This document shows, in pieces, positions 1,438-64,000 of a stretch of DNA of 64,000 nucleotides. The notes beneath the pieces were generated by a model. The model saw nothing but the letters and a program-made list of their open reading frames with translations, was not told the DNA's origin and ran no database searches. The stretch is taken from the NCBI GenBank assembly GCA_963971405.1, contig OZ020488.1, positions 25,997,089 through 26,061,088 on the forward strand, read 5' to 3'. The position numbers and the translations under genes were made by a program. The first letter of the stretch is position 1, and each line of letters begins with the position of its first letter. This DNA comes from Psococerastis gibbosa. Lineage: Eukaryota > Arthropoda > Insecta > Psocodea > Psocidae.

Positions 1438-2205
1438 GGGTCTATAATGCTCCCCGTGCTGTTTGTTTCACTACCACAGGCATTTCATGTATTCTCAATA
1501 GGCAATATTATGCGCAGTTCGGCTTCATTACAGCATATAATCGCGACCAGTGAGGCCACTAACTACACGTTGATTTCATCGAGCTCCATACAGTTGCAAT
1601 TACAATCCACAGACAAATCAATGTGAAACAAGGGGTCACGGATCCCTCCGATACTCTCTGAGTGGAAGAGAGGGGTTGATAACCGTAACTTCGTTACATG
1701 GGATGAACAATGGAACAGAAAGTAATGATTTATGTATTTATTATGGAAGACCAAAAGGGCAAAAGAGCAGCATTATTACTTTTAGACACAATCAACCGAA
1801 TATTTCGATAATCTCTTAGGACTAATTGCAGGCATCAAGCAACAGTCATTACGATTTAGCGTATTTTCGATTGATGGTTAAAAGCGGGTCACGTGGGTTT
1901 GGAGTGTGACGTCATTTTCATGTTACCCCTGTCTGTTGGAGTTTTGGCTCATGTAATCCACAGCCAAAAATACTTACACAATTTATTTATTTTTTAATAT
2001 TTTAATCTTATTAAAAAAAACATGCAAAAAACACAATGTATTATTTTTGTTAATCTATTAGCTGCCTTTTCTAGCATATTCTATATTTTAGTGTTACAAC
2101 TATTAAGTAGCCTATTAATGGGAAAAAAATTCAATATATCGCAATGCATTTTGTATCGTTATTATTCAGACGTTCCGTACTCGGCATACAGCCACTTTTG
2201 CTTAC

Positions 2206-2481
2206 CAGTCTGACTTGGTTGCCGGCCCTTTTCAAGGCATCTACAGCTGCGGCATGTGGTACGTCCACCACGGAGACCTCGTTGACCTGGAGGATGGTGT
2301 CGTTGACGCGTAGCCGGCCGTCGGCGGCGGCGGCGCCCCCAGGGATCAGCTTGGTGATGTAGATGGCGGTGTCGTTGCCAATGTGCGGATTGTCGGTGCC
2401 ACCGGCGATGCTGAACCCCAGCCCCGCTCCGCCCCGCTCCAACGTAATGTCCTCGTACTCCCAGTCATCCTCGCCGTTCAC
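2206..2481 (-). CDS. dlg1: dlg1 (discs large MAGUK) exon encoding PDZ domain 1
   Basis: This exon spans 276 nt, or 92 codons in phase 0-0. It follows a strong acceptor (TTTTGTAATGTTTTCAG just above 2481) and ends at a GTAAGC donor (2205 downward). It starts [18 protein letters not shown] and contains the carboxylate-binding loop GLGF, then [29 protein letters not shown], and the [13 protein letters not shown] helix. These are hallmarks of PDZ1 in Dlg-family MAGUK scaffold proteins, which organise septate junctions and synapses by binding C-terminal peptides. In Dlg proteins PDZ1 is followed by PDZ2, PDZ3, SH3 and guanylate kinase domains; those exons would lie below position 1, outside the window. 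The ORF continues 75 nt past the donor into intron. Family assignment is firm; the symbol rests on similarity to arthropod Dlg. Confidence 0.93.
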
Positions 2482-2544
2482 CTGAAAACATTACAAAAGT
2501 TGAAAATAATACTTATTTTCTTCCTGTCTTATTATTGGTTTCCA

Positions 2545-3440
2545 ATTTATACGTAGTATAAGGAAAGCTTTGTGATGGTCGAAATTTCCGATTCTGAGAT
2601 TTCAACGGGTTTACACGTTTTGAGGTACCAGGAGCCCAAAAAAACGTGGTTTTTACGAAATGTCTGTCTGTCGCTCTGTCTGTCTGTCTCTCTGTCTGTT
2701 CATCGATTTCCGGGCAAATTACTCGGTGGATATGGATGATATTTGGCATATAGGTTCACAAAAATCATACCTCAGGACCATTTTATTTTTATTTTGGGGA
2801 AACTCAATTTGGGGGGGAGGGGGTTATTCTCAAAGAACTCCAAAAAAACGTCTGAAAAAATTTATTTATCAAAAACGGCTCCAACGATTTCTTTTAAATT
2901 CACACATATTGTAGTCGTTATTAATGTCAATAAAATACGGGGGGTCGCTTGCCCCTTGATAGTTTGCTTCTGGGGGTAAAAAAATAAAAATAACTAAATT
3001 TTAATGAAAAATGACTAAAAAATAATTTTTCCGCGAAACCTTTCTATCGATGATTTCTACCTTCTGACATGTTTTAGGTGTTAAATTGAGTAACGAAACC
3101 GGACAGGTTGCTTTCCCAAAAACTATTTGGTTTTGTGCAAAAAAAATTCATTGTTTTCAAAAAATGCGAGAAAATTCACGCTGAAATGCATTGCGTGCCC
3201 TCCCATTATTACTGTGTGGTAATGTGTTGGTCTGACCTATCTAGAATTTACCTCACCTCCAGTGACGTCAGGTGAACAACCCCCCCCCCCCCCCCCACCC
3301 CGAGATATCCGAAATTTAACCATTGGGAAATTATTTACTATGAAATTACTCATTTTCTCTATCTACTAATTGATAAATTGGAAAGCATGTACGAGTAAAC
3401 TCGGACCGGTTCTTTACAATATTGATCAGTCAGAGATTGG
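2545..3440 (+). repeat. Interspersed repeat family A, longest copy
   Basis: The copy begins near ATAAGGAAAGCTTTGTGATGG and ends near GGAAAGCATGTACGAGTAAACTCGGACCGGTTCT. The same blocks occur at 13795-13962 (3' part), 38390-38665 (minus), 52425-53065 and 57825-58045. It contains a (CTGT)n microsatellite (2657-2700) and a 17-base C run (3280-3296). No protein-coding segment or clear TIR was found. It is probably a non-autonomous transposon; class unknown. Confidence 0.7.
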
Positions 3441-5584
3441 TTATTAACAGGTTATCTGAACGCAAATATACTGTAAACAATAAAAAACAATAAAATAAAA
3501 ATGGAAAGTGCATAGCATCAGATTACCAATATCGATTGTGAATTTAAGCCCCTACCCCATTCGCAGCACTCATGTTATTTCTGTATGTACAAATATTCAA
3601 TTTCATCGCTGAAACGCATTGCTGGTTAGGAACGCTATAAAACATGCTATTGCACATTTCCTATATATTTTCCAATTTCTTCCCAAAAGGAGGGTGTCAC
3701 AGGACCTGAGCTTTCGGTCGACTGTTATGAAAATGAAGACGGCTAAAGAACCTTTTAGACCGTAAACAGTAGACGGGAGGAGGCGCCAAAATGGGAATTT
3801 CCCTCGCCCTGTAAGCAATAGTAGCATACCAGTGGATGTGTGGCCCGCTAGTAGGAATAGGTTTATAAATGTGGCCCGTTGGAAAAAAGGTTGAAGAACG
3901 CTATTCTAACCTACTACGAGCAGATCACAAGATCAAAGGAATTTGTTGGTCGGCTGAAACCGTTCGACATCTCCTTCAGTCAGTGGCGTATATTGGAAAT
4001 GGGAAAATGCCTTACGAAATTAACTAATGTTGTAATGCGTAATTTACCGGATCGATGTTCGGGTCAACAGTGAGCGATAAGCAGCATAAAGTTGATAGCT
4101 GGAGGCGATCAGATCGCCACTACCTTCAGCGTTACTTTCGTTTTAAATTTTTAACCACCAGTAGAGTGACTTTTTACGGTCTAAATTGCTAATACAGCCG
4201 CAGCATACAGTCCAATTCCTGCTAACGGGTATAATCAGGCGGGTGGTTCTCGCCATATGGGCAATGCAACAAAATCGTGCCCCCAAGGTCGCACTAGCAG
4301 TAGACAAATTTGGTTTGCACGGAACATTCGCAGAAAGAAATGAATTCTACCGAGTGCATTGGCATTAATTTAATTTAAAAATTACTTTGGACCGTTTTTT
4401 ATAGTTATTTCCTGCTTTTTACACATTTTTTAAAGTTTATTTTATGCATACTGCAAACTCTTGCCATGCAGAGGGTGGTGGCCTTGGGGCACGCACTTGG
4501 TGAATGGAGGTAGCTATCCATTTATATATTCGTATGTATGGAGATCAATGCGGATAATAGTGGAGTCCGGTGGATGTATTAATACCAGGCGGGCATCCGG
4601 AGCGCAGTCACTCAACAATTTTGTGGTAGTCTCCTCATGTAAGCTGGTGAACTCGCCATAACCCAATACCGTCAAAAGCAAGCTAATTAGATTGCGAGTT
4701 AAATACGCAGAGACTTACTGCGCCTGTTGAATTGTTGATTCGTTTTCCTTTAGCAACTATTTTCTTTTTTTATGTCGGAACCCTACACTTCACAAACGCT
4801 TCCTTCGCTGTTTGAACCATCGCGAGGTTGTCAGATTTCCACACACGTTTCACCGCAATCGGCAATACTTAGATTATAGCTTGGCACCATTTATTCCAGT
4901 TTATTATTGTTGATTTATACTCGCAGTTGTTTTTTTTTCAGGACTGTAATAGCGAATGACGAAAAAATTACAATATACGTATTTTATGAAACCTCAGTTG
5001 TCGAAAAATTGAAGTGTTCACCATTATTACATTTTTCATTCCGCTGCAACACAACCGCCCAAAACATGTAAATATATCAGTAAAAATGGTAATTAAAAGG
5101 GCATGACAGGTATCAGGCCGAACGATCGCTGAACAAGCGGTCCCCACGTATCCAAATGACACCTCCCCACCTCCTGCCCCAGGATAAACGTATTTCCCTA
5201 AACGACTGTTAGCAAACATCGCTGGCCGTGTATTAACCCTTTTTTGATGAATACCCCGAGACGAGTTGTTACCGCCGAGTCCCCAAAGATTTACGGGAGT
5301 GGCCGTATGCTGTCCAACAGGCAATACTCATGTCTCTGATTTATAGACCTGCTATGTGTGTGGGAAATTGCTGCGAACCCAAAATGTCGAGTAAGGGTGA
5401 AAAACATTTAAACACGATAATGGCTGTTATATTGTCTTTTGTGCAGTAAAATGCCTTTTGTTGAACAGTGCTGTATTGTACTATTTGTATAAGCATATTG
5501 TACATATATATTTTATAAGTTTACTAATTCAGACCAGAATTAGACTATTTACGAAAGTAGCACGACGATGTTCATATTTCTTTA
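3441..5584. other. Gene-free intron-like stretch
   Basis: No convincing coding frame. Around 3840-3905, GTGGCCCG and GGTTGAAGAACGC resemble the ends of degraded hAT-type MITEs, but no partner end or target duplication was found. The remainder is unassigned. Confidence 0.5.
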
Positions 5585-5699
5585 GGCGGGGTTTCCATTG
5601 ACCTCGTCGTGGTAGCAGACATTGAAGACTGTCTTTAATGTCTGCTACCACGTCAATATCACACTCACGCTAAAAAACGAGGTCAATGGAAACCCCGCC
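5585..5699. mobile_element. FB1 foldback MITE, copy a
   Basis: This 115-bp element has inverted ends GGCGGGGTTTCCATTGACCTCG and its complement (the left end begins at 5585), flanked by TTA on both sides (5582-5584 and 5700-5702). The centre holds the family signature GTGGTAGCAGACATT followed by its complement AATGTCTGCTACCAC. The 3-bp TTA/TAA duplication and G-rich TIR suggest PIF/Harbinger-type mobilisation (inference). Confidence 0.85.
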
Positions 5700-5975
5700 T
5701 TAGCAATATCGGTATATCCCGTCTAGTTCGTGAAAACAATATTCCAGCTAAGAATGGACATAGCCATTTGACATTTCCAAAATACAAATTATTAGCTTCA
5801 GTTTGTATTAAAACTGCATCTTTAAAAAAAATGAGCTTATTATCGTTTATGGAATTTGGGTTACAAGTTGCAGTAAATAACGATGAAAGTAAAATGTTGT
5901 AATACTTCTTGAAATTAGTAATAACACTCGACAGACGGTCCACGTCCAGTCTAGGTAACTTAACTTTACTTAACT

Positions 5976-6153
5976 TTCTTTAAAGGTTAATCGCATACAA
6001 ACAATTTAATGAATGCATCCGATTAACCTATTTAGTCGTTTCTGTAGGTTAGTATCCGTGTTGAGTTACGACACGTCTCTGATCAGTCTGATCGCATGGC
6101 GTGTAGACTCGAACAAGTACAAGCAAGCTAGCAACTTGCCATCGAACGGACAC
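5976..6153 (-). mobile_element. tRNA-derived SINE-like element S2, copy 1
   Basis: The minus strand shows TGGCAAGTTGCT (like a pol III A box) and, about 20 nt later, TTGTTCGAGTCT (like a B box). An unrelated body of about 110 bp follows. The whole block recurs at 48372-48532 in the same orientation with about 85% identity by eye. This is consistent with a tRNA-headed SINE. Target duplications are not clear. Confidence 0.55.
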
Positions 6154-6983
6154 TAAACTACCTGCTCTGAAATTATACACAGACAATTCATTACAAATTT
6201 CATTTGTAGGAAAGCATTCAAAGGGTATTTAAAACCGGCGAAAAAGAAGAAACCTTAATTGAGAAAAGAAAATTAAAAACCTTCAGAAAGCTACACTCCC
6301 ATCCGCTCTTAAATAAATTAAGAAGAGCTGAAAAAAATTCAAAAGAGCTTAAATATTTAAATGATTTATAACGCAGGAAGTTTGCAGCGAGGAACCTTCT
6401 GCACTTTCTGTTCCACTAGATTGGCTATAAGACTGTTGGTTATTTTTCTTTTTGTTAATAAATACCCAGAACATGGCAAATATTATATGGGAATAAAGCC
6501 CAGTTAATACCAAACTTTTTCTCTGGATTTTTTTAAAATCCTAACAAGTCATTGTAGAAATGAACTTCTCTGGAGAATTTTATAGACTTACTCGGTTAAA
6601 GCACTCAGCAGCACTCATGAGAAAACTTCCAACTTCCGAATAATAAAATCTTCTTTGTTCTTTATTAAATATGTATATGTATTAGAAAGGGTATTAGCAT
6701 CATTAGGATTAGCATCTTTCATATAATCCAAACTTCCATTAAGGAACATCTTCGTTATGTGCAAATAATGTAGATGTCCCCAAATAATAATATATTTGGA
6801 GTAAAATGTAGAGTAATCTTTATTACATGAAAAAATCATTTTACAATTAGTGATTCAAATGGGCAACGTTACGATTTTCTTAAAAACAAATATAAAAAAG
6901 ACTAACTTATTACAAATAAGGTAAACAAACAGTGCAATTGTATTGCAAAAGAGTAGAAAATATTTATTGTAAAAGCTACTTAC

Positions 6984-7019
6984 CTGTCTAGCATCACCGG
7001 AGAGTAGAGGTGTATGAGC
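6984..7019 (-). CDS. dlg1: Candidate dlg1 36-nt microexon (upstream of PDZ1)
   Basis: A strong acceptor (TTTTCTCCATTTTGTTTCAG) precedes this block and the donor GTAAGTAGC follows it. The exon is exactly 36 nt and is phase 0 on both sides, encoding AHTPLLSGDARQ. It joins in frame to the VNGEDD start of the PDZ1 exon 4.5 kb downstream, and to the other 36-nt exon at 41062-41097. In Dlg-family genes the stretch before PDZ1 is known to be split into alternatively used short exons. The gene assignment is inference from strand, phase, position and splice quality; no transcript was available. Confidence 0.6.
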
Positions 7020-7549
7020 CTGAAACAAAATGGAGAAAACATTTAGATAAGTGTGATCTCAGAAACGAGGAATTTAATTTGTTAGCGAACATCTCGTAAA
7101 TGGCACTTTGTTTACCAACTACCGGTATCTACTCTGGTATATCAATATCAGAGGCGTAAAGTTTTAGAATGATGGCGGGGGCAAAACTTAGTAGACCTTA
7201 TGACGTCAACGTCATCAGGCAGGATAAGGACACATTGAAAATATAAGAGCAAAGGGTTTTACGCATTTTAATAGTAGTAATATCCAATTTCAGTAAGGTT
7301 GGGTTTGGACCCCTATTATTTGACATCGTGGTTGCCAAGTTTGCCCATATCTAGGATATATAGTATAAGATAGTATAAGCAACCATACTGAATGTTTTGA
7401 GCATGGTTTTGGCGTCTTAAGAATTGTACGGCTATTAGTTACACCATAATTCGCTTTTCTAAATGAATACGGACAAGATAGTCAAATCGACGGCAATGGA
7501 ACCAAAATTGTAAGGAGATGCTTGAGTCCAACCGATTTACTACAATATA

Positions 7550-8059
7550 GGGGTCTTCACAATGTTGGTGTTATCGAGTTACATGTGCTATCCAAGTTAG
7601 CACACAATCGTGAGTGGACCGCGGGAGTGAGTTATCATGCTATATCGACAGAGTAAACAACGTGGTAGTAGTCAGTCGTTCGTGGCACGGACTTAAAGAA
7701 AGTGGCAGAACTCTATTCTAGTGCCACATTTGTTTATATTTTTTGTTCATTTTGGTTATTATAATTTTAAGTATTTACGGTAATTGCTTGTGATAATAGA
7801 TTTGCCAAATAAATTTAAAAACTACAAAATTTTAAACGCGTGTTTCAAATCAATCAACAAAAACAAAGATCGCGGCGGTCAAACTTGAGCTATCGATCGC
7901 AGGGCAAGCTAAATAGTTAAATAGCACGTTAACCAACTTGGAAGTGCGTTTAGGATAGCACGCTGGTTATCTTGGCTATTATATATGTATTAACTTAACT
8001 TAATATAACACACTTTACTAGGTATAACAGCACGATAACACGAACAATGTGAAGACCCC
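7550..8059. mobile_element. 510-bp non-autonomous TIR element
   Basis: The left end GGGGTCTTCACAATGTTGG and the complement of the right end GGGGTCTTCACATTGTTCG match over about 28 bp, including GTGTTATCG further in. The interior is non-coding. Flanks are TATA-rich (CAATATA and TTATATAT), so the target duplication cannot be defined. Superfamily unknown. Confidence 0.65.
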
Positions 8060-8855
8060 TTATATATGCAACTGAATTTACTTTATGATTCCCGAATTGA
8101 AGAATTAAAAAAATATATTTGATGACGTCACTTCTGTTTACTAAACATGCGTATGCACAAACTTTAATAAATTGCAGTATAGACCTAATAATACAATAAT
8201 AAAAATATCAAAAGGAAATACATGTGTTACTCGTATGCTTGCATACATTTGAAGTTTAAATTATAAAATATTTAATTTCATTGCAATCATCAGGCACATG
8301 GTGTAACCACACCTACAGTACTCGTTTTAATCTCAAACAAAGATGGTTTTTCGATAATGACAACAACGATTTTGAAAGGATTCCAATGGATTTGGTTCGT
8401 GAAAGTTCGCTGCGGTTTAGCATTTTAATTGCACAGTTTCCTTTACGGGGCTTTCATTGCTTGTGTATGCAAAGCCACTGCTGATAACGCTGAGGTACGT
8501 AACGGGGGCCGGGTCGGGGTTATTAGGTTTCCAAAATGGGCCTTGAATGCCGCCCCTTCCTCTCTCCACCTTTCCACTCATATTACTGACGATTGTGTGA
8601 AATCTGGTGAAATACATTGTGCTTAAGGTGAAGTTGTCGATTTTATATGGGCTTACATTGATTGTAAAATTTCCTCGTGATATTGGAGTAATGGTGACTC
8701 TCGCCCCAAGTATGGTATAATGGGGAAATCCCGGCAAAATTCAATTGTCAATACGAGCTTAGCAGTTGATAGCTGGTGTGGACTCCAAGACCCCTTACTA
8801 TTCAGAGCCAAATTCCCTTGGTTAATAAATTTAACTTATGCCTATATTTCACTTA

Positions 8856-18067: not shown

Positions 18068-20643
18068 GCTGAACAACTCAAAATCTATAGGAAACTTAAA
18101 GAAAAATTCGCCATTGCTTCACTTAACCTCAAATTTAACCAAGATTGCAAAAGACTTAGAATCACTCCTGAATACATCCAAATTAAAACAGCAACCTTTT
18201 CCACACAATCCAATAAAGCACTTAGAATCGCCCAGAAAGTCTGGCTAGCAGAAGAAATCAAAAAATGGTTCTAAATCAGAGACAGCATAAGCCTTTACCT
18301 TAAAGTTTTACATTCAGAATTACCTTTCAAACTTCACTTTTTAGAATGGACCACCTTCCAAGATCAAATATACGCAAAAATTAGTGGCATAACTTACAAA
18401 AAATGCACAACACTAAATAAAAAAATAAAAGAACTGAGTCAAAACCAAAATAACAAATCCAACGGAATACATCACACATCACATCGCGACACGAAACATC
18501 AGATGCGCGAGACGCACGTGAGTTCCCGGTCTAACCCCCTTCATCGATCGATGCAGACTGGGGTAGGTCAGGGCCTCACGCCTTCAGCGCAGACACTCAC
18601 TACACTACCCATCACAACACATAAATTCTATCCTCGTACCGTCAACTTATCTAAGACGATTTTCAACACAAAAGAAATGGAACTTCTCAACAAGGGCCTC
18701 AAGTATTGCCCCGATATAGGTCTAAACAAAAACACGTTAACCAACTTAATGTCAGACACTGAATTTAGCCTAAAAAACCGCAATAATGAAAAACACATAG
18801 CAGCAGATATTCTGAAAAACGTCAAACTTACACACAAAAACTATGATACTAAATCTATAAAAAAGAAACTAGCCCAAGATAGCCTTACACTCACCAAGGC
18901 GGATAAAGGAAATTCTATTGTCATCTTACCTACCCAAGATTATGTTTCTAAAGTCTTAGACCTCATTTCTGACGAATCCACATTCGTAAAACTTAAAGTA
19001 GACCCCACAAACAAATTCCAAAAAGCAACCAAAAAAGCCATTAAACAAAGCTCTAATACGATACCTCAAGATATAGTCTATAAATTTACCAACATGAACC
19101 CCGTAGCTCCTTCATTTTTTGGTCTGGTTAAACTTCATAAACCCAATCAACCTATCCGCCCAGTAGTTTCGTATAACAGTGCCCCAGCCAGCAAAGTAGC
19201 TAGTTTTCTCAACAAACACATTCGTGAGCTATCAAACTTCACACCCCGCCACAGCGTCAAAAACTCATTCGAGCTGGTTCCCCGCCTTAAGCACCTTTCC
19301 TTATCCAGCAATGCCAAACTCGTCTCTTTCGATGTCAAAAATCTGTTTATTAATATTCCCGTACCCGAAGTACGTAAATTAGTTGCCCAGTCACTCTATC
19401 ACAATAATACCTCGAACAGCCTTATTTCGGAGACCCTCCTTCTATTAGACACATGCACTCATCAAAACTATTTCCGTTTCGAATCCGACTACTACCAACA
19501 AAAAATAGGCCTACCTATGGGTTCTTCCCTTTCTCTCCTTCTTGCTGAAATTTTTATGGATAACTTCGAACACAAACTTCGACTCAATACTGTATATCTT
19601 TCTGGACAAGGTATGTGGATGATATCTTCTGCATTTGGACAGGAAGTAACAGACAACTAGACAATTTCTTAAGTTTTATCAACACAATTCACCCAAAAAT
19701 CCAATTTACAATGGAAGTAGAAGAAAACAACTCCCTGAACTTCTTAGACCTCACCATCACCAAAAATAATAGTACCCTAGACTTCAAGATATTTCGTAAA
19801 GAAACCCATAGCGATAATATAATCCTTGTTGATTCTTCTCACCCATTCCAGCACAAACACGCAGCATTCCATAGTATGATTTTTCGACTCCTTAACATCC
19901 CTATGAATGAAACCAACTATAATAATGAATTAAATACAATAAAACAAATTGCCCAAAATAACAATTTCAATCTCAATCTAATAGACATAATCCTACGACA
20001 TCACAAAATCAAGCACAACCTCAAACAAATTTACCCCCCAGAGAGCTTAAACCCGGAAACCAATAAATCATATTTCAGGATACAATACATAGAAAAAATC
20101 GCAGAAAAAATAAGTAACATCATTTCTTCTACAACAGACAAAACACCAGCCCCATACAACCGCAACAATTTAGCCAATAAACTCATGAACTGCAAAACCA
20201 AACCAGAAAAGGAAAAAGGCAATGGAGTTTATCGTCTAAATTGTAACGATTGTAACGCAATTTATATAGGCCAAAGAGGCAGAAGCCTTAAAATTAGGGT
20301 CAGAGAACATATAACAGGTATAGGAGACAACACCAACAGCACATTCGCGAAACACCTTAACTCGGAAAATCACACATTCGATCCTCACAATTGGAGAGCC
20401 ATACACAAAATAAAGAAAAGTTACACTTTAAATTTTTTTGAAAATGTTGAAATCAAAAGAGCTTTACACAATAGGGAAAAATTAACAAACGACATAACAT
20501 TCACACAATCATCCCCTCTAATAGATCTAGCTAGTAGGTTAGGAATAGGTAACCAGCCACGCCCCCTCCCACCCCCGCTCCCAGTCCTATATAAACCAAG
20601 GTTTTCTCTCCCTAGTCACATTTGCATCTTCTCCTCGAGTTGA
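18056..20643 (+). pseudogene. Penelope-like RT / GIY-YIG polyprotein (broken)
   Basis: The natural start is probably ATG 18056 (MSFVAEQLK...), just inside the left repeat. The frame is interrupted by TAA at 18272-18274, continues to about 19600, then shifts by one base before the catalytic box. RT signs are KADKGNSIVIL, FFGLVKLHKP, SFDVKNLFINIP (motif A), QKIGLPMGSSLS (motif B) and YVDDIF (motif C, 19612-19629). The C-terminal endonuclease shows GVYRLNCNDCNAIYIGQRGR with R and EH downstream (about 20224-20310), including the CxxC between GIY and YIG that is usual in Penelope-like elements. The stop at 20643 lies within the right terminal repeat. The element would copy itself by target-primed reverse transcription, but this copy cannot make a full protein without recoding. 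ORF length without the lesions, about 860 codons, fits the class. Confidence 0.92.
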
Positions 20644-25439: not shown

Positions 25440-26081
25440 TTATGGTAAACCTGAATTAGTGAGGTTTTACACATTTTATCCCCTGGAGAAGGGGGCGCAG
25501 CAGTCTCCCCTGCAGAAAAACAAAATGATAAATGGGCCCAAATTAATGAGGTTTTTCGCATTTTATACCCTGGTGATAGGTGGGCCCGGGGGTCTCCCCC
25601 GTAGAAAAAATTGATAAATAGGCCCAAATTAGTGAGGTTTTACGCATATTAAACCCTGGAGAATGGGGGGCCGGGGGTTTCCCCCGAAGAAGGAAAATTG
25701 ATGTATATAGGTCCAAATTAGTTAGGTTTTACGAATTTTGCAAGCAGTACAGTTGAGATTGTACCGACAAATAAACCTACCACTGAGGGGGCCCGGGGGT
25801 CTCCCCCGAAGAAATAGCTTGAAAAAATAGGTCTGAAATAGGCCTATTGGGATCTTAAGCATTTTGAGTAATATATTTTTGTGAAAATAAGTCAATGTGT
25901 TGATTTTTTCATGATGTCTTTCATGTAAAATAAGCATACCAGTATCAAGAATTAATTTCCCTTTCGTTATTGTGGATACTATGCCTTTCGCCTCCATAGC
26001 GTCTTTGTCACCAGAAATCCTGGAGGGGGGGGGGCCTGCGGGCTTAGCCTCCCCCCCAGGACCCCCCTATTTACGCCAATG
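25440..26081 (-). mobile_element. GC-hairpin element (relative of 39019-39997), nested in the hAT element
   Basis: Read on the minus strand it starts CATTGGCGTAAATAGGGGGG, as at 39019. It contains TTCTGGTGACAAAGACGCT and then several ~88-bp units, each with GGGGGAGACCCCCGGGCC-type inverted G/C runs and CCTCACTAATTTGGGCC. The far end is not clearly defined (possibly near 25331), and no target duplication could be confirmed. Confidence 0.7.
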
Positions 26082-39018: not shown

Positions 39019-39997
39019 CATTGGCGTAAATAGGAGGGTCCTGGGGGGGGGGGGCTTACACCCCCCCCCAAGTCCACCCGTAGCCCCCCCCCCAGGATTT
39101 CTGGTGACAAAGACGCTATGGAGGCTAAAGGCATAGTATTCACAATAATGAAAGGGAAATTAATTATTAGTATGCTTAAATTACATGGAAAAAAATCATA
39201 TTGACCATATTAACCAAGTACTTCCACAAAAAATGTATTACTCAAGATGCTAAAACCTCAATACTTTAGAGCTATTTTTCCAAACTTTTCTACGGGGGAG
39301 ACCCCCGGGTCCCCCTCAATGGCAGGTTTATTCGTCGTTATAATAAAAGAATTGTACTGCTTGCAAACATTGGCGTAAATAGGGGGTCCTGCCCCCAGAA
39401 GCACCCGTAGCCCCCCCCCCCCAGGATTTCTGGTGACAAAAACATTATGGAGGCGAAAGGCATAGTATCCACAATAACGAAAGGGAAATTAATTCTTGGT
39501 AGGCCTATGCGTATTTCACATGAAAGACATCATGAAAAAAATCAACATGTTGACCAAGAACTTTCACAAAAATGTATTACTCAAAATGCCTAAAACCTCA
39601 ATTTTTCAGACCGATTTTTTCAAACATTTTCTTCGGGGGAGACCCCCGGGCCCCCCTCAGTGGTAGGTTTATTCATCTGTTAAATCGCAACTGTACTGCT
39701 TGCAAAATGCGCAAACCCTCCCTAATTTGGGCATATTCATCAATTTTTTCTCCGGGGGAGACCCCCGGGCCCCCCTTTCTCCGGGATAGAATATTCGTAA
39801 AATCTCACTAATTTCGGCCCAATTATCACTTTTATTTCTCCAGGGGTGATCCCCGGGCTCCCCTTTCTCCAGGGTATATATGCGTAAAACCTCACTAATT
39901 TGGGCCCATTTATCGATTTTTTTTTCTCCGGGGGAACAAGGTCTTGGGGTCCTAAAGCCCCCCCCCCCCCCAGAAATTTTGGGAATTTACGCTAATG
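39019..39997 (+). mobile_element. 979-bp hAT-like element made of GC-hairpin units, 8-bp target duplication
   Basis: The ends are CATTGGCGTAAATAGG and the complement of GAATTTACGCTAATG. GTATTTAT is duplicated exactly at 39011-39018 and 39998-40005. The left ~350 bp is repeated internally from 39368. The right part is a tandem array of ~85-120 bp units, each with CTCCGGGGGAGACCCCCGGG-type inverted G/C runs and CCTCACTAATTTGGGCC. Non-coding. The nested element at 25440-26081 is a relative. Confidence 0.85.
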
Positions 39998-58780: not shown

Positions 58781-61700
58781 TTATAGGTTTAATAAGACTA
58801 GACGCGACTGGGCGGTTTTAGCCAAGAAAATGTTAGGCAAAGAATGAGAGGGGGCAATAGGCACGTTGCCCATTATGACGTAACCAAACTGAGTGAAGAT
58901 GGGCTTAGGCCATTGCTGGGGGAAGTTTGGAACCTCGGGGGGTGGGTTTGACGACAGGCATAAGATGTCCATAGTGCTTGCGGCACTCAGAAGCATATGT
59001 ACTTCCTTAGTGGCAAAAGGGCGGGGGTCAGCTAAATTTAAATGGGACAATTTAGTGACAAAATCAGGGTGTACGGCAGTAGAAGGTAAATTATTAGTAA
59101 TTTTAGGCAAAATACTGGCAGTAACAGAGTAGCGAAGATCAGCGTTGGCGCGAGATTGTAGCACAACAGTGACATCACCAAGAGTACGGAGCTTGGTATC
59201 AGCAATACCTGCAATTTCAGATTTGCAAGCATTGGAGACATTTAGCCCAAGACGGTTAGCAGTAGGCAGAGAAATCAGATTCTTTTGACTTCCGGTGTCA
59301 AGCAAGGCATTCACTTCATGTATGAAGCCAGCACGATCAACAACATGACAGACAATGGTACCCAGCATAGTGGTATACACAGCTGAGTCAGCAGGAGCGG
59401 GAAGAGCAGAGGTGCATGTCATGGTAGGTGCAGGAGCAGAGGCGGTAGCCATGTGTATGGCAGCAGAGGCGGAGGGCGCCCGTGGCGGCCCTGGCACAGC
59501 GGCGGTGCAGAGAGCAGGAGCAGAGGCGGAACCATTGGCAGAGTAGGGTGCCATAGGCGACGCAGCAGAGGTGGGTTGTCCGCGGTTGGGACACAGCAAG
59601 GAATTGTGATTCTTCCCATAGCAGTAGATGCACTGTCTAGTGCTTTTACACTCTGTAATAATATGAGAGTGAGAGAAACAAGCAAGGCAGCGATTAGCAG
59701 ATTTTACCCAGTTAGTACGATTAGGTAAAGACAGCGGTAGAAATGTAGGGCAGTGGGTAATTTTGTGAGCAGTAGCGCTACAATAAATGCAAGCAAATTT
59801 AGCATTAGTAGATTTAACATTAGCAGGCACGGGTTTAGAGGTAGCGGGCTTTGGTTGCGCTTCGGGCGCAGACTTTTCGGCCTCAATCAGCGACATGGAG
59901 TGCTGAGTTTTGGATACAAATGCTATAAGATCCTTGAACTGTGGAATAACATGAGCATCAAGTTGGTTCTCAAACAATTTACGCGTGTACGTGTCGAGAT
60001 TGCGTAGAGCTAGATTAAGCAAAATAAAATCACTTAAATCAGTAACACTAGCGAGGATTTTAGCGGGTTTCAACTCCAACAGTTCATTAGTAGGTAAATT
60101 AAAACTGGGGTTTGTTAAAGGGGGAAAGTTTTCACGGAGAAATGATGGGCCGTGAAACCACATTTCACATTTCAGCAGATCAGAAGGATGTAGGCCACGA
60201 CTGGCCGCATCAGCAGCGTTATCCTGGGAGCTACAGTGCTGAAATACAACGTTGAGGTTTTTCGTGCGTTCCAAAATGTTGGACACACGGTTGGCTGCGT
60301 AGACTTTTAGCTTATGGCAGGGTATTTTCAGGTATGAGAGCGCAATGGTAGAATCTGAAAATAAATAGGTACGCTGGATGCGATAGGGTAGATTGCCTGA
60401 AAAGAACCAAGCAATTAGGTTCGATGCTAGCTCAATGGCAGCCAGCTCGAGCTGTGGGATGGTGCGTTTTACACGTTGTGGGGCTAGCCTGCTCCGGCTC
60501 ATGAGTAGATTGCTGGAGCAGCAGCTGGAGTCTGGTACGTCAGAAGACACCAGATAGGCGCAGCAGGCTATGCCATTTTCGGATGCGTCGGCGAAAACGG
60601 TTAGCCAGTTTTTACCCTCGGGGGCCGCAATGAAACGGGGAATATCCACAGAAGACAATGAGGGCAAAAAATTAACAAAATCAGTCCACTCAGACAACAG
60701 ATTAGCAGGCAGAGGGGTGTCCCAACCAAGAAGGGGATGAACACACCACAGTGATTGGATAAATTTTTTCATGTAGAAGATACATGGATGCAGGAGACCA
60801 AGGCTGTCATAGGTTTTAGCCAAGTAGCTGGTGCATGTGCGGCGGGTAATTGGGCCTGAAAATGGCTCAATTTTGAAGCAGAAAACGTCAGCAGCAGGTT
60901 TCCAGTACAGACCTAGTACGGGAATAGAAGCAGAGGACACAGATGGATCAACAATTTCAACCTGAGAGGCTAAATCCATATGTGATATCCCTGAAAGAAT
61001 GTCGGGATGAGAAGCAGCGAATTTGCGGAGTTTGAAGCAACCTTTGCTGAGAAGCTGAGTCAGCTCAGAACGCAGCTGAGAGCATTCATGCAGGGTAGAA
61101 GCACCGGCCCAAACGTCATCAATGTAGGTATCTTGACGCAGAGCTTTGGATGCTAGAGGTAAGGTGTCAGCATTTTCGTCAGCGAGTTGCTGAAGGCATC
61201 TGAGGGCAACAAAAGGGCTACATTTTAGACCATAGCATAGGTGAGTGATTTTGAGTTCACACACGGAGCCTTCGGGACACACACGGCCGGCAGAGTCAAT
61301 GCGAGCGAGTATGTGCATTTTTTCGGCGTCGGAATCGCACATTTTGATGGACCTGTAAAATGTTTCAATGTCAGCTGTAAAGCAAAACCGGTTCCAGCGA
61401 GACGATAGCAGAATGTAGTTGATGTTGCGTTGCAGGGGTGGACCACACATCAGTAGGTCGTTGAAACTAGCCGAATGATCAGCAGCTTTCAGCGTGGGAT
61501 CGAAAACTAGCTTTGGTTTACCTGTGGATTTTTTGAAAACAACGTGGCTGTTGAATAAGAAATCATTAGACACAGCAGAGGGCAGGATTTGATTTTTGTC
61601 AATATAATCTTGCAGGGACGCCTGGTACACAGGGTAGGTACCTGAAGGCTTTAAAAGTCGGGATTCCAGAGCGCGAAAGCTAGCAATGGCCCGGGTTGGT

Positions 61701-61933
61701 GGGTGGGGTGGGTTCGGAACGAAGGGTAGCGAGACAATGAATCTACCATCAGAGTCACGTGTGTGGGTAGAGAGAAAATGGTTTTCAATAGCTAGGTACT
61801 CAGGATCAGGCACAGCATATTCCATTGTAGGTTCAGGCATCGATTCCCTTTCGAATAACTGTTCCATTTCGAGAGTTAGGGGTTGAACGGGGGTAGCACA
61901 AGGGGACCGCCTACGAGGAAACTCGCGGGACAT
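58781..61933 (-). CDS. BEL/Pao RT-RNase H fused to gag zinc knuckles and protease
   Basis: One uninterrupted 1050-codon frame. Residues 18-70 match the pre-RT segment (LTLEMEQLFERE, THTRDSDGRFIVSLPF). RT motif A is FTADIETFYRSI (D188) and the catalytic box is YIDD (270-273). RNase H acidic residues lie in FADAS (about 449), QLELAA, LFSDST (about 527) and DNAADAASRG (571). From about 632 the protein becomes gag-like (DLSDFILLNLALRNLD). It then has three CCHC knuckles (715-728, 749-762, 768-781), an Ala/Pro-rich spacer and an aspartic protease with ALLDTGSQKNLIS (DTG 879-881). In known elements gag and protease come first, so this fusion is inverted in order. No stop or frameshift is seen. It starts at ATG 61933, 15 nt after an in-frame TGA, overlapping the integrase frame. 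Confidence 0.92.
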   Translation of the reverse strand: MSREFPRRRSPCATPVQPLTLEMEQLFERESMPEPTMEYAVPDPEYLAIENHFLSTHTRDSDGRFIVSLPFVPNPPHPPTRAIASFRALESRLLKPSGTYPVYQASLQDYIDKNQILPSAVSNDFLFNSHVVFKKSTGKPKLVFDPTLKAADHSASFNDLLMCGPPLQRNINYILLSSRWNRFCFTADIETFYRSIKMCDSDAEKMHILARIDSAGRVCPEGSVCELKITHLCYGLKCSPFVALRCLQQLADENADTLPLASKALRQDTYIDDVWAGASTLHECSQLRSELTQLLSKGCFKLRKFAASHPDILSGISHMDLASQVEIVDPSVSSASIPVLGLYWKPAADVFCFKIEPFSGPITRRTCTSYLAKTYDSLGLLHPCIFYMKKFIQSLWCVHPLLGWDTPLPANLLSEWTDFVNFLPSLSSVDIPRFIAAPEGKNWLTVFADASENGIACCAYLVSSDVPDSSCCSSNLLMSRSRLAPQRVKRTIPQLELAAIELASNLIAWFFSGNLPYRIQRTYLFSDSTIALSYLKIPCHKLKVYAANRVSNILERTKNLNVVFQHCSSQDNAADAASRGLHPSDLLKCEMWFHGPSFLRENFPPLTNPSFNLPTNELLELKPAKILASVTDLSDFILLNLALRNLDTYTRKLFENQLDAHVIPQFKDLIAFVSKTQHSMSLIEAEKSAPEAQPKPATSKPVPANVKSTNAKFACIYCSATAHKITHCPTFLPLSLPNRTNWVKSANRCLACFSHSHIITECKSTRQCIYCYGKNHNSLLCPNRGQPTSAASPMAPYSANGSASAPALCTAAVPGPPRAPSASAAIHMATASAPAPTMTCTSALPAPADSAVYTTMLGTIVCHVVDRAGFIHEVNALLDTGSQKNLISLPTANRLGLNVSNACKSEIAGIADTKLRTLGDVTVVLQSRANADLRYSVTASILPKITNNLPSTAVHPDFVTKLSHLNLADPRPFATKEVHMLLSAASTMDILCLSSNPPPEVPNFPQQWPKPIFTQFGYVIMGNVPIAPSHSLPNIFLAKTAQSRLVLLNL

Positions 61934-63030
61934 AGCAGTTCCAGCGGGTCAGTAGTGTCAGCAGACGGCGGTAAGTAGGGTCGCGAATTCATTAACGACT
62001 CAACCCTGGAGAAAACAGTGCAGAATTCTTCAAAGTACAAAGGTTTCAACAACAATGGCTTCAACAACCTTTTGACTTGTTTGATGAGAGGTTCCCACGA
62101 ACCAAACCAAGGTGCGTATACGGGAATGTGCGAAAATTTAATTCCGCGTTGAGCAGTAGCAGACAAGATGATGTCTTTCTCTCTCTCGAGAAACTGAGCA
62201 CACTCAGAGAGATGCTTGGCGCCAGCAGAGAAATTACCAGCATTGTCAGAGCGAATAAGCCTAGGTAGACCGCGGCGAGACGTGAAGCGATCAAGAGCAG
62301 CGAGGTAATCTTTAGCAGACATGGAGGAGATAGGTTCAATGTGAACAGCACGGGTATTTTCGCAAACAAACAGCAGAGCCCAAATTTTTTTAGTAGCAGA
62401 GTTGCGGCGAGCAGATAACTTTGCAGCATATGGCCCAAAAGCATCAACTCCAACAACGTCACGAAATGGAAAGCACATTTCGGTTCTGAAAGAAGGTAAG
62501 TTAGCTTGTTGCGGGGAAGGTTTGCGGGGGTGCAGCTTAGCGCAAAGCACACACTTTCGGATAGTTGACCGCATGATAGAACGGCCGGAGATTATCCAGA
62601 AGCTTTGCCTAGAAAGTGAGAGGCTTAGAGACGAGCCGCCGTGACCTGCAAGGCTGTGAAAATAACGGCACAACATTAGTGATAAGTTGCATGACTTAGG
62701 TAGAATCAGCGGGTGACGAGCTGAGTCAGCGATTGGTGCTGACTGCAGGCGACCTCCCACACGAAGAAGACCTTGTTGATCAAGGTACGGTGTGAGTGCA
62801 GAGAACTCTCGGCTGAGTTGCTGACTTTTTTGCAGTTTGACGATTTCTTCAGGAAAGCTAACACATTGCTGTTGCTTGACGACAGCAATAGTAGCAGAAT
62901 GCAATTCATTAACAGTTAGTGGGCAGCACAATCGATTAGTAGCGGGTTTGCGACAATTAGCAATAAATCGTAGAACATAGGCAGTGATGCGGCGTAGTTT
63001 ACGAAAATCAGAGCACTTATTAGTAAGCAC
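61876..63030 (-). CDS. BEL/Pao integrase, separate upstream ORF
   Basis: 384 codons. The N-terminal part (RITAYVLRFIANCRK) is the segment that normally links RNase H to integrase. The zinc-binding HHCC domain shows H125, H130, C160 and C163. The catalytic core has GVDAFGPY (D196), LIRSDNAGNF (D262) and FGSWEPLIKQVK (E313), so the DDE triad is complete. It ends FLVGGPLVLPPFNP, short of the usual C-terminal extension. Homologous sequence continues upstream of the ATG to about 63066 and then stops abruptly. The last 58 nt overlap the RT ORF in a different frame, so translation of RT would need reinitiation or frameshifting. It would insert cDNA into chromosomes. Confidence 0.92.
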   Translation of the reverse strand: MLTNKCSDFRKLRRITAYVLRFIANCRKPATNRLCCPLTVNELHSATIAVVKQQQCVSFPEEIVKLQKSQQLSREFSALTPYLDQQGLLRVGGRLQSAPIADSARHPLILPKSCNLSLMLCRYFHSLAGHGGSSLSLSLSRQSFWIISGRSIMRSTIRKCVLCAKLHPRKPSPQQANLPSFRTEMCFPFRDVVGVDAFGPYAAKLSARRNSATKKIWALLFVCENTRAVHIEPISSMSAKDYLAALDRFTSRRGLPRLIRSDNAGNFSAGAKHLSECAQFLEREKDIILSATAQRGIKFSHIPVYAPWFGSWEPLIKQVKRLLKPLLLKPLYFEEFCTVFSRVESLMNSRPYLPPSADTTDPLELLCPASFLVGGPLVLPPFNP

Positions 63031-63066
63031 AGAGATGACGTTAGGTTCAGGTACAGGTACCGGTAA

Positions 63067-63424
63067 GCGTCACCTACACGTCGCAAGGTAAGCCACAGTG
63101 CTCCTGCACCCCCTTCTAGCGCCCAGTCGCGTCTAGTGGTCCTTCTAGCCTTCCACCCCTGTGGTCTACACCCCCTTTTCCTGTGTTCCTGCTGCTCCCC
63201 GTTGAGCCCCTGTTCCCTACTCTTTTCTTATTGTATTATTCTTATTTTTTTTCACACGCTTGTGTTGAGTTAAGCATTTTATTGTTTGGTATTAAAAAAA
63301 AAAAAAAAAAAAAAATCGTAAACCAAATGCACACAATCTCAGTGAGTTTACTTTAAGTAGTGTTTTGCACTTTTTGTCGTGTACAAACTTGCCTTTGTCT
63401 ATTTTAATTTTTTTTTCGTTCATT
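63067..63424 (+). other. Probable leader or LTR-derived sequence before gag
   Basis: Pyrimidine-rich sequence containing the 18-bp CGCCCAGTCGCGTCTAGT, an A run of over 20 at about 63293-63315 and AT-rich DNA up to the gag ATG. It sits between the end of the integrase homology and the oppositely oriented gag. LTR ends and a primer-binding site were not identified. Confidence 0.4.
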
Positions 63425-64000
63425 ATGTCAATGGACGAAATTGCGGAGAATCGTGTATTTCTTCAGCGTTTTGAAGACCTGTTTGCTCGTGCCACTAGGG
63501 CTCGAGACCAGGTAAGTAATTATTCTAAAACGAAAGTTTCCTTATTCCAGGACAAGCTTGTCCTTGTTAGGGCCCTCCGTGACGAGGTCCCCGCCATTCA
63601 GGATTCCATATATCGGAATAATGCGGTTATCCCTAACGCATCTGATCGTCTGGATATTTCTAAAAAGGTTACCGCTTTAGATGACTTAATTGAGTCCATC
63701 GCTGTAAAATACTACGAAGCTGTTGACTACAGTCAATCGTCGTCCGCCGCTGCTGCTGCCGCTGCTGCACCCCCCGCCCCTCCTACCTCTGTTCACGCCG
63801 GGGTGAGGCTGCCGCACATTCACGTACCTCCATTCACTAATGATGTGAAAAGCTTCCCATAAGTTCTTTCGTTTGTTTGAAGCTGTATATGGTAAAAACG
63901 CTCAGCTCACACACGTAGACCGTTTCTACTATCTACAGTCTCTGTTGTCCAGTTCAGGTCTTGCCTTTAAGCTCACGCGTTTACCTTTACATATCTCTAT
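63425..64000 (+). pseudogene. BEL/Pao gag N-terminal half (frameshifted, cut by window end)
   Basis: It starts at ATG 63425 (MSMDEIAENR). Helical, charged N-terminal ~90 residues are followed by an Ala/Pro-rich linker (SSSAAAAAAAAPPAPP) and LPHIHVPPFTNDVKSFP, the usual entry to the BEL/Pao gag core. The frame hits TAA at 63860-63862. The homologous reading then continues one base off with FFRLFEAVYGKNAQL and RFYYLQSLLSSSGLAF to the end of the window. So a single-base indel lies near 63858. Gag forms the particle shell. It is on the opposite strand to the other modules. Confidence 0.85.

Follow-up and report, generated by a model that had tools for sequence, protein, structure and literature searches.

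The window, the whole 64,000-nucleotide stretch of Psococerastis gibbosa DNA analysed here, carries toward its right edge a retroelement with two open frames, both on the minus strand: one of 1055 codons (58781-61948), covering reverse transcriptase-RNase H (RT-RH), gag zinc knuckles and protease (PR), and one covering integrase (IN; 61876-63069). Pfam matches stand above curated cut-offs for Peptidase_A17 (PF05380, E = 3.8e-36) and Integrase_H2C2 (3.3e-6) and below them for rve (9.1e-6), DUF1758 (0.0072) and RVT_1 (0.019); the zinc knuckles and the DTG and DDE motifs were called by reading the letters rather than from a model. The original prediction, made from the letters of the sequence, assigned the domains to the BEL/Pao type, and the Pao-type peptidase A17 domain bears this out. 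It also read the minus strand as IN, RT-RH, the C-terminal half of gag, PR, an order that frames, Pfam matches and alignment to relatives all show to be real. The BEL/Pao order given in an excerpt of PMC3118150 (protease, RT, integrase) is present in relatives and absent from the window copy. The likeness to a permuted Copia-like order is coincidental, a product of the reversal of three blocks (C-B-A). As for the long in-frame run, the RH|gag joint is indeed in frame, which gives the 1055 codons, but IN does not share a frame with RT: the initial 17 or so codons of the long frame are unlike the RT of relatives (the match begins at codon 18) and are integrase DNA in the wrong reading frame.

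The feature had been delimited as 58781..63066, and it continues on the plus strand (R-U5, PBS, leader, gagN and a second LTR piece) to 64184. The insertion as a whole occupies 58799-64184, reaching 184 bp beyond the window edge, with its ends set by LTR termini and a target-site duplication (TSD). Along the plus strand it consists of the reverse complements of 16 bp of U5, of gagC-PR, of RT-RH and of IN, then sense R-U5-PBS-gagN and LTR 66-303. The left TSD copy, AAGAC (58794..58798), borders the left terminus TAGACGCGACTGGGCG (58799..58814, minus strand), the LTR's final 16 bp (U5 end) in reverse complement. Four nucleotides (58815..58818), judged by eye to be filler or imperfect annealing, separate it from block A (58819..60051, minus strand; gag C-half with zinc knuckles plus protease, about 3021-4266 in the canonical coordinates of the reference relative, L012). 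Block B (60040..61894, minus strand) holds RT-RH, canonical 4269-6132, and block C (61889..63056, minus strand) the RH-IN spacer and integrase, canonical 6136-7303. The polarity of the element flips at an R-U5 part of the LTR (LTR 224-303; 63056..63135, plus strand), beyond which lie the leader and the gag N-terminal part (63136..63950, plus strand), recognized by DNA match to relatives as far as canonical 2798, and within them the putative PBS TGGTCCTTCTAGCC (63137..63150, plus strand), so called from its position right after the LTR end and its TGG start. The right terminus is LTR 66-303 (63947..64000, plus strand, and on to 64184 outside the window), ending in TCTA and followed just beyond the window by the second AAGAC (64185-64189).

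The insertion thus has U5 ends on both sides, flanked by a perfect 5-bp duplication, and has no terminal LTR pair in the same orientation (a 16-bp inverted U5 end on the left, LTR 66-303 on the right), so that it cannot be dated from LTR divergence. It contains one partial core in pieces, with both its internal and its terminal LTR pieces truncated, and no further copies of any block were found elsewhere within the window. The claim that every motif is intact and free of stops holds for the minus-strand blocks but not for the element as a whole: gag is divided between both strands, the gagN frame (ATG at 63425, plus strand) meets a stop after 145 codons (63860-63862), and canonical 7304-7821, after integrase, is missing, as are canonical 2799-3020 and LTR 1-65. 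Early stops in gagN occur in several relatives too, and the gagN part gave no convincing Pfam match. No LTR piece is positioned to drive the minus-strand frames, and, judged by its anatomy, the insertion product lacks a promoter from which its frames could be expressed and was probably dead on arrival.

Relatives were sought across the 409-Mb assembly (68 contigs), where a six-frame search gave at least 46 matches. Places above 90% identity comprise the window copy and nine relatives (L011, L012, L013, L014, L042, L043, L045, L046 and L047), each examined over 10 kb. Seven are collinear with L012 across blocks A, B and C (although L013 lacks its 5' part and gagN is gapped in L043), and L045 is a truncated canonical copy. 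In a motif-order check of eight copies gag comes before RT in the seven where both motifs were picked up; the check overlooked RT in the remaining copy and IN in every one. The reference LTR measures 303 bp (TAGTTGAG...GCGTCTA), and the TSDs read by eye in four relatives (CTGAC, TCCAC and GTCAG in L011, L012 and L014, CATAT in L042) are 5 bp, as is AAGAC. L042 (C19:31553500-31563499) is itself an asymmetric-LTR copy: its 5' LTR is full, its 3' LTR (8179-8270) includes only 211-303, and CATAT is its TSD. The best copy differs from block to block (A, L012 at 97.6%; B, L013 at 98.4%; C, L011 at 99.6%; gagN, L014 at 98.8%; the second LTR piece, LTRb, L042 at 100%), each coding block differing from its best copy by 0.4-2.4% with gaps counted, and therefore none of the copies examined can be its sole parent. 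The element may stem from mixed RNAs or from a parent outside the sample.

The original prediction had placed two of the five joints correctly, near 60040 and 61890: RH|gag, at 60040..60051 (minus strand), is a 12-bp microhomology with one mismatch and 8 contiguous matching positions, and IN|RT, at 61889..61894 (minus strand), is a 6-bp microhomology (ACCCCC). Together with gagN|LTR 66 (63947..63950, plus strand; 4 bp, GTCC), they give exact microhomology of 4-8 bp at three of the five joints; among 200,000 random pairs from the reference copy, matches of at least 8, 6 and 4 bp have frequencies of 0.000175, 0.002 and 0.0185. At the central joint (near 63056) the exact match is a single base pair, or 5 bp including one mismatch if the other strand is read (by eye); the 4-nt filler lies at PR|U5. 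Splicing was considered as the origin of the gagN|LTR 66 joint and rejected, there being no GT-AG at any shift of the common bases (by eye).

The minus-strand blocks do not overlap in canonical coordinates; they abut. Between canonical 4266, the last position of block A, and the start of B, within 4269-4275, 2-8 nt are lost; B reaches 6132 at most and C begins at 6136 (3 nt lost). When three random intervals of the block lengths were placed in 500,000 trials for each condition, abutment within 10 nt at both borders arose with a chance of 8e-6 for the canonical order (4 hits) and 4e-5 for any order (20 hits). Taken in the direction of cDNA synthesis, A to B to C, every later copy ends at an earlier copy's start. 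RNase H removes already copied RNA during reverse transcription, and we infer that later blocks stop where earlier ones began because RNase H had taken away the copied RNA.

Polarity changes just once along the element, and both arms begin exactly at the LTR end beside the PBS, which is where tRNA priming starts. We consider it quite likely that the locus is one insertion of an aberrant reverse transcript, from a BEL/Pao family that is canonical in its other close members, made through successive template switches on RNA that RNase H had already consumed, after which two minus strands fused and the product integrated. A first tRNA-primed minus strand would have copied only 16 nt of U5 before switching to the protease region, copied A downwards, and then jumped by microhomology to the RH end; B would have been copied as far as the start of A, where the template gave out, and C, after a jump to the IN end, as far as the start of B, RNase H having destroyed the RNA that was missing. 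A second minus strand, also primed by tRNA, would have run through U5-R to LTR 66, switched to gag, and continued through gagN, leader, PBS and U5-R to about LTR 224. The 3' end of one strand would then anneal to the other near 63056 and be extended into a linear duplex that has a U5 end on either side, and integrase would join both U5 ends to the target. The order of the switches and the RNase H step are inferred. Since U5 termini stand on both sides with AAGAC flanking them, the scramble most likely preceded integration, and a linear molecule carrying two U5 ends was most likely what integrase inserted. Counting against this reconstruction, copying through PBS-U5 requires RNA with its U5 still unconsumed; and because different RNAs would fit the block-wise best relatives too, the step with a single consumed template is weakened.

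Among the suggestions in the original prediction, a scramble by template switching finds support in the microhomology of three joints and in the abutting blocks. Breakage of double-stranded cDNA in the particle or nucleus, its fragments rejoined by microhomology-mediated end joining before integration, would explain the abutting, non-overlapping blocks and the 4-8 bp of microhomology equally well, and is compatible with the differing best relatives of the blocks. We nevertheless regard it as rather unlikely. The final 16 bp of U5 occur three times within the element, which exceeds the supply of one finished two-LTR cDNA, so that end joining requires a second molecule; a U5 end must moreover be cut at 16 bp and then rejoined as an outer end; A, B and C all share the same polarity from the U5 end; and a second insertion, on C15 (described below), has strong-stop sequence joined to itself. 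Rearrangement of a canonical copy after its insertion, by several inversions or nested insertions, invokes events frequent in repeat-rich DNA, but it predicts a U3 end on one side, and to leave exact U5 termini with a matching TSD it needs a coincidence with odds of about 1 in 1000, repeated on C15; this makes it distinctly improbable. Simple autointegration would be expected to leave an internal joint at a processed LTR end, and all five joints lie away from LTR ends.

An assembly error joining unrelated copies, also raised in the original prediction, would appear very unlikely given exact LTR termini with a perfect 5-bp duplication on both sides, 18.5 kb read without any N, and flanks whose only full-length matches, among 40 scored of 793 candidates, are the element's own two. 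No empty site elsewhere in the genome was present among the same 40 scored of 793; a repeat of about 60 bp was also seen for the right flank. The proposal of a new lineage with permuted order draws on the in-frame RH-gag joint and the open frames across 1055 codons, yet it is the least credible reading of all. A permuted autonomous lineage should carry its joints in multiple copies, and the genome-wide search that had been suggested for RH|gag and IN|RT, which took in these two of the five joints, found each at one site in the 409-Mb assembly, that of this element, with up to 3 mismatches allowed. The relatives are canonical, the minus-strand frames have no LTR placed for them, and gag lies on both strands. 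Unique joints beside canonical relatives are what the original prediction itself had said would refute a lineage; in this genome the lineage is refuted by them, and another genome might differ.

The LTR's final 16 bp, searched for exactly, occur at 57 places genome-wide (36 plus, 21 minus; 0 for the reversed control). Opposed neighbours with U5 ends outward and within 12 kb number three: one is the window element, and the others lie on C15 (32492455-32492577 and 32492903-32493025). The C15 pairs go back to a single insertion that was later duplicated together with its flanks (351-bp unit, 98.6%); the sole inward-facing pair is located between both C15 copies. The C15 insertion (L015) is 123 bp, the reverse complement of the LTR (303-255) followed by LTR 226-303, with an ACTTA duplication on both sides. 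Its LTR break position, 226, is nearly equal to that of the window element, 224, and it looks like two strong-stop cDNAs joined end to end. No additional opposed pairs were seen by eye among 100 listed of 118 sites with up to one mismatch, and opposed U5-U5 pairs were absent from three related families, with 0 among 50 (by script), 39 and 9 (by eye) exact ends. In the same family there were 0 opposed U3-U3 pairs among 28 exact U3 ends, a small sample, and 2 U5-U5 against 0 U3-U3 is by itself no demonstration of a U5 bias. Two events make up the U5-U5 class, and no rate can be derived from so few.

By our own count, 31 of the 57 U5 ends are without an exact U3 partner: three in the window, four on C15, one in L042, two in L043, one in L044, and 20 that were fetched, which proved to be 18 diverged LTRs (full or near-full length) and two odd cases. 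One of these (L040/L039, with L040 at C21:1395000-1404999; 6915-7281) has gag 2889-3023 joined to LTR 66-303, with no clear duplication at its left end. The other (L041/L028, with L041 at C12:16296500-16306499; 4838-4860) is the LTR's final 23 bp, the U5 end, alone amid other repeats, and no partner was found for it. Certain switch points recur: LTR 66 in two cases (the gagN joint of the window and C21) and LTR 211-226 in three, the latter region being one that may contain the RNA 5' end. A 12-bp perfect palindrome, ACCGGTACCGGT, covers LTR 221-232 and is whole in the element only at 64102-64113, beyond the window. Both U5-U5 joints (LTR 224 and LTR 226) fall inside it, and it could conceivably allow pairing of RNAs or cDNAs.

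The evidence leaves it evenly balanced whether U5-U5 insertions constitute an unrecognised class, in which two tRNA-primed minus strands would be fused near their 3' ends and integrase would accept both U5 ends, with a minimal form in the strong-stop dimer (the 123 bp on C15) and an elaborate form in the present scramble, whose run-offs would record template removal by RNase H. We found no report of insertions ended by U5 on both sides in the open-licence literature, from which subscription papers are mostly missing; as far as that literature shows, U5 at both ends is new, and template-switching insertions are known in kind. Autointegration products (an excerpt of PMC2644782) are likewise self-inflicted rearrangements of cDNA in which inversions are possible. 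The complex LTR retrotransposon insertions that Sabot and Schulman (2007, PMC1950507) described in grasses are collinear dimers whose outer LTRs are highly similar and which carry a third LTR internally; they share with the window element an aberrant structure ascribed to reverse transcription, flanking 5-bp TSDs (here too around the whole rearranged unit) and ordinary integrase action. Unlike those dimers, the window element has U5-U5 ends, one polarity flip and a reversed block order, and in place of an internal LTR with two complete cores, bounded by near-identical outer LTRs, it has one partial core in pieces and truncated internal and terminal LTR pieces.

HIV-1 proviruses with asymmetric LTRs have deletion joints ascribed to minus-strand synthesis followed by integration, according to excerpts of Joseph et al. 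2022 (PMC9278108), in which a figure legend marks inversions as well. L042, with its 3' LTR of 211-303 only, is a copy of this type; two U5 ends and reordered blocks, as in the window element, go without mention in those excerpts. Gmr1, a Ty3/Gypsy lineage whose order is Copia-like (Goodwin and Poulter 2002, as cited in an excerpt of PMC2774666), is a precedent for altered pol order in a heritable lineage, whereas the window element is a single insertion. A single copy with an odd domain order, in other words, need not be a new lineage. If the proposed class is real, it would offer natural sequence evidence that two U5 ends can be joined by an integrase of this group and that failed reverse transcripts, strong-stop-sized ones included, can enter a genome; U5-U5 insertions would then be readable records of template switching and of RNase H progress in particles. 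Tools that require paired LTRs in the same orientation are expected to overlook them.

Other features of the window include a reverse transcriptase (18275-20643, plus strand; PF00078, E = 1.4e-7), followed by a frame for which Pfam gave no match and which we take to resemble the GIY-YIG end of a Penelope-like element. A PDZ domain exon (2131-2490, minus strand; PF00595, E = 1.8e-21) presumably resembles that of discs-large. Tandem arrays with an 86-88-bp unit lie at 25454-25739 and 39707-39935 and appear by eye to be one repeat in inverted versions.
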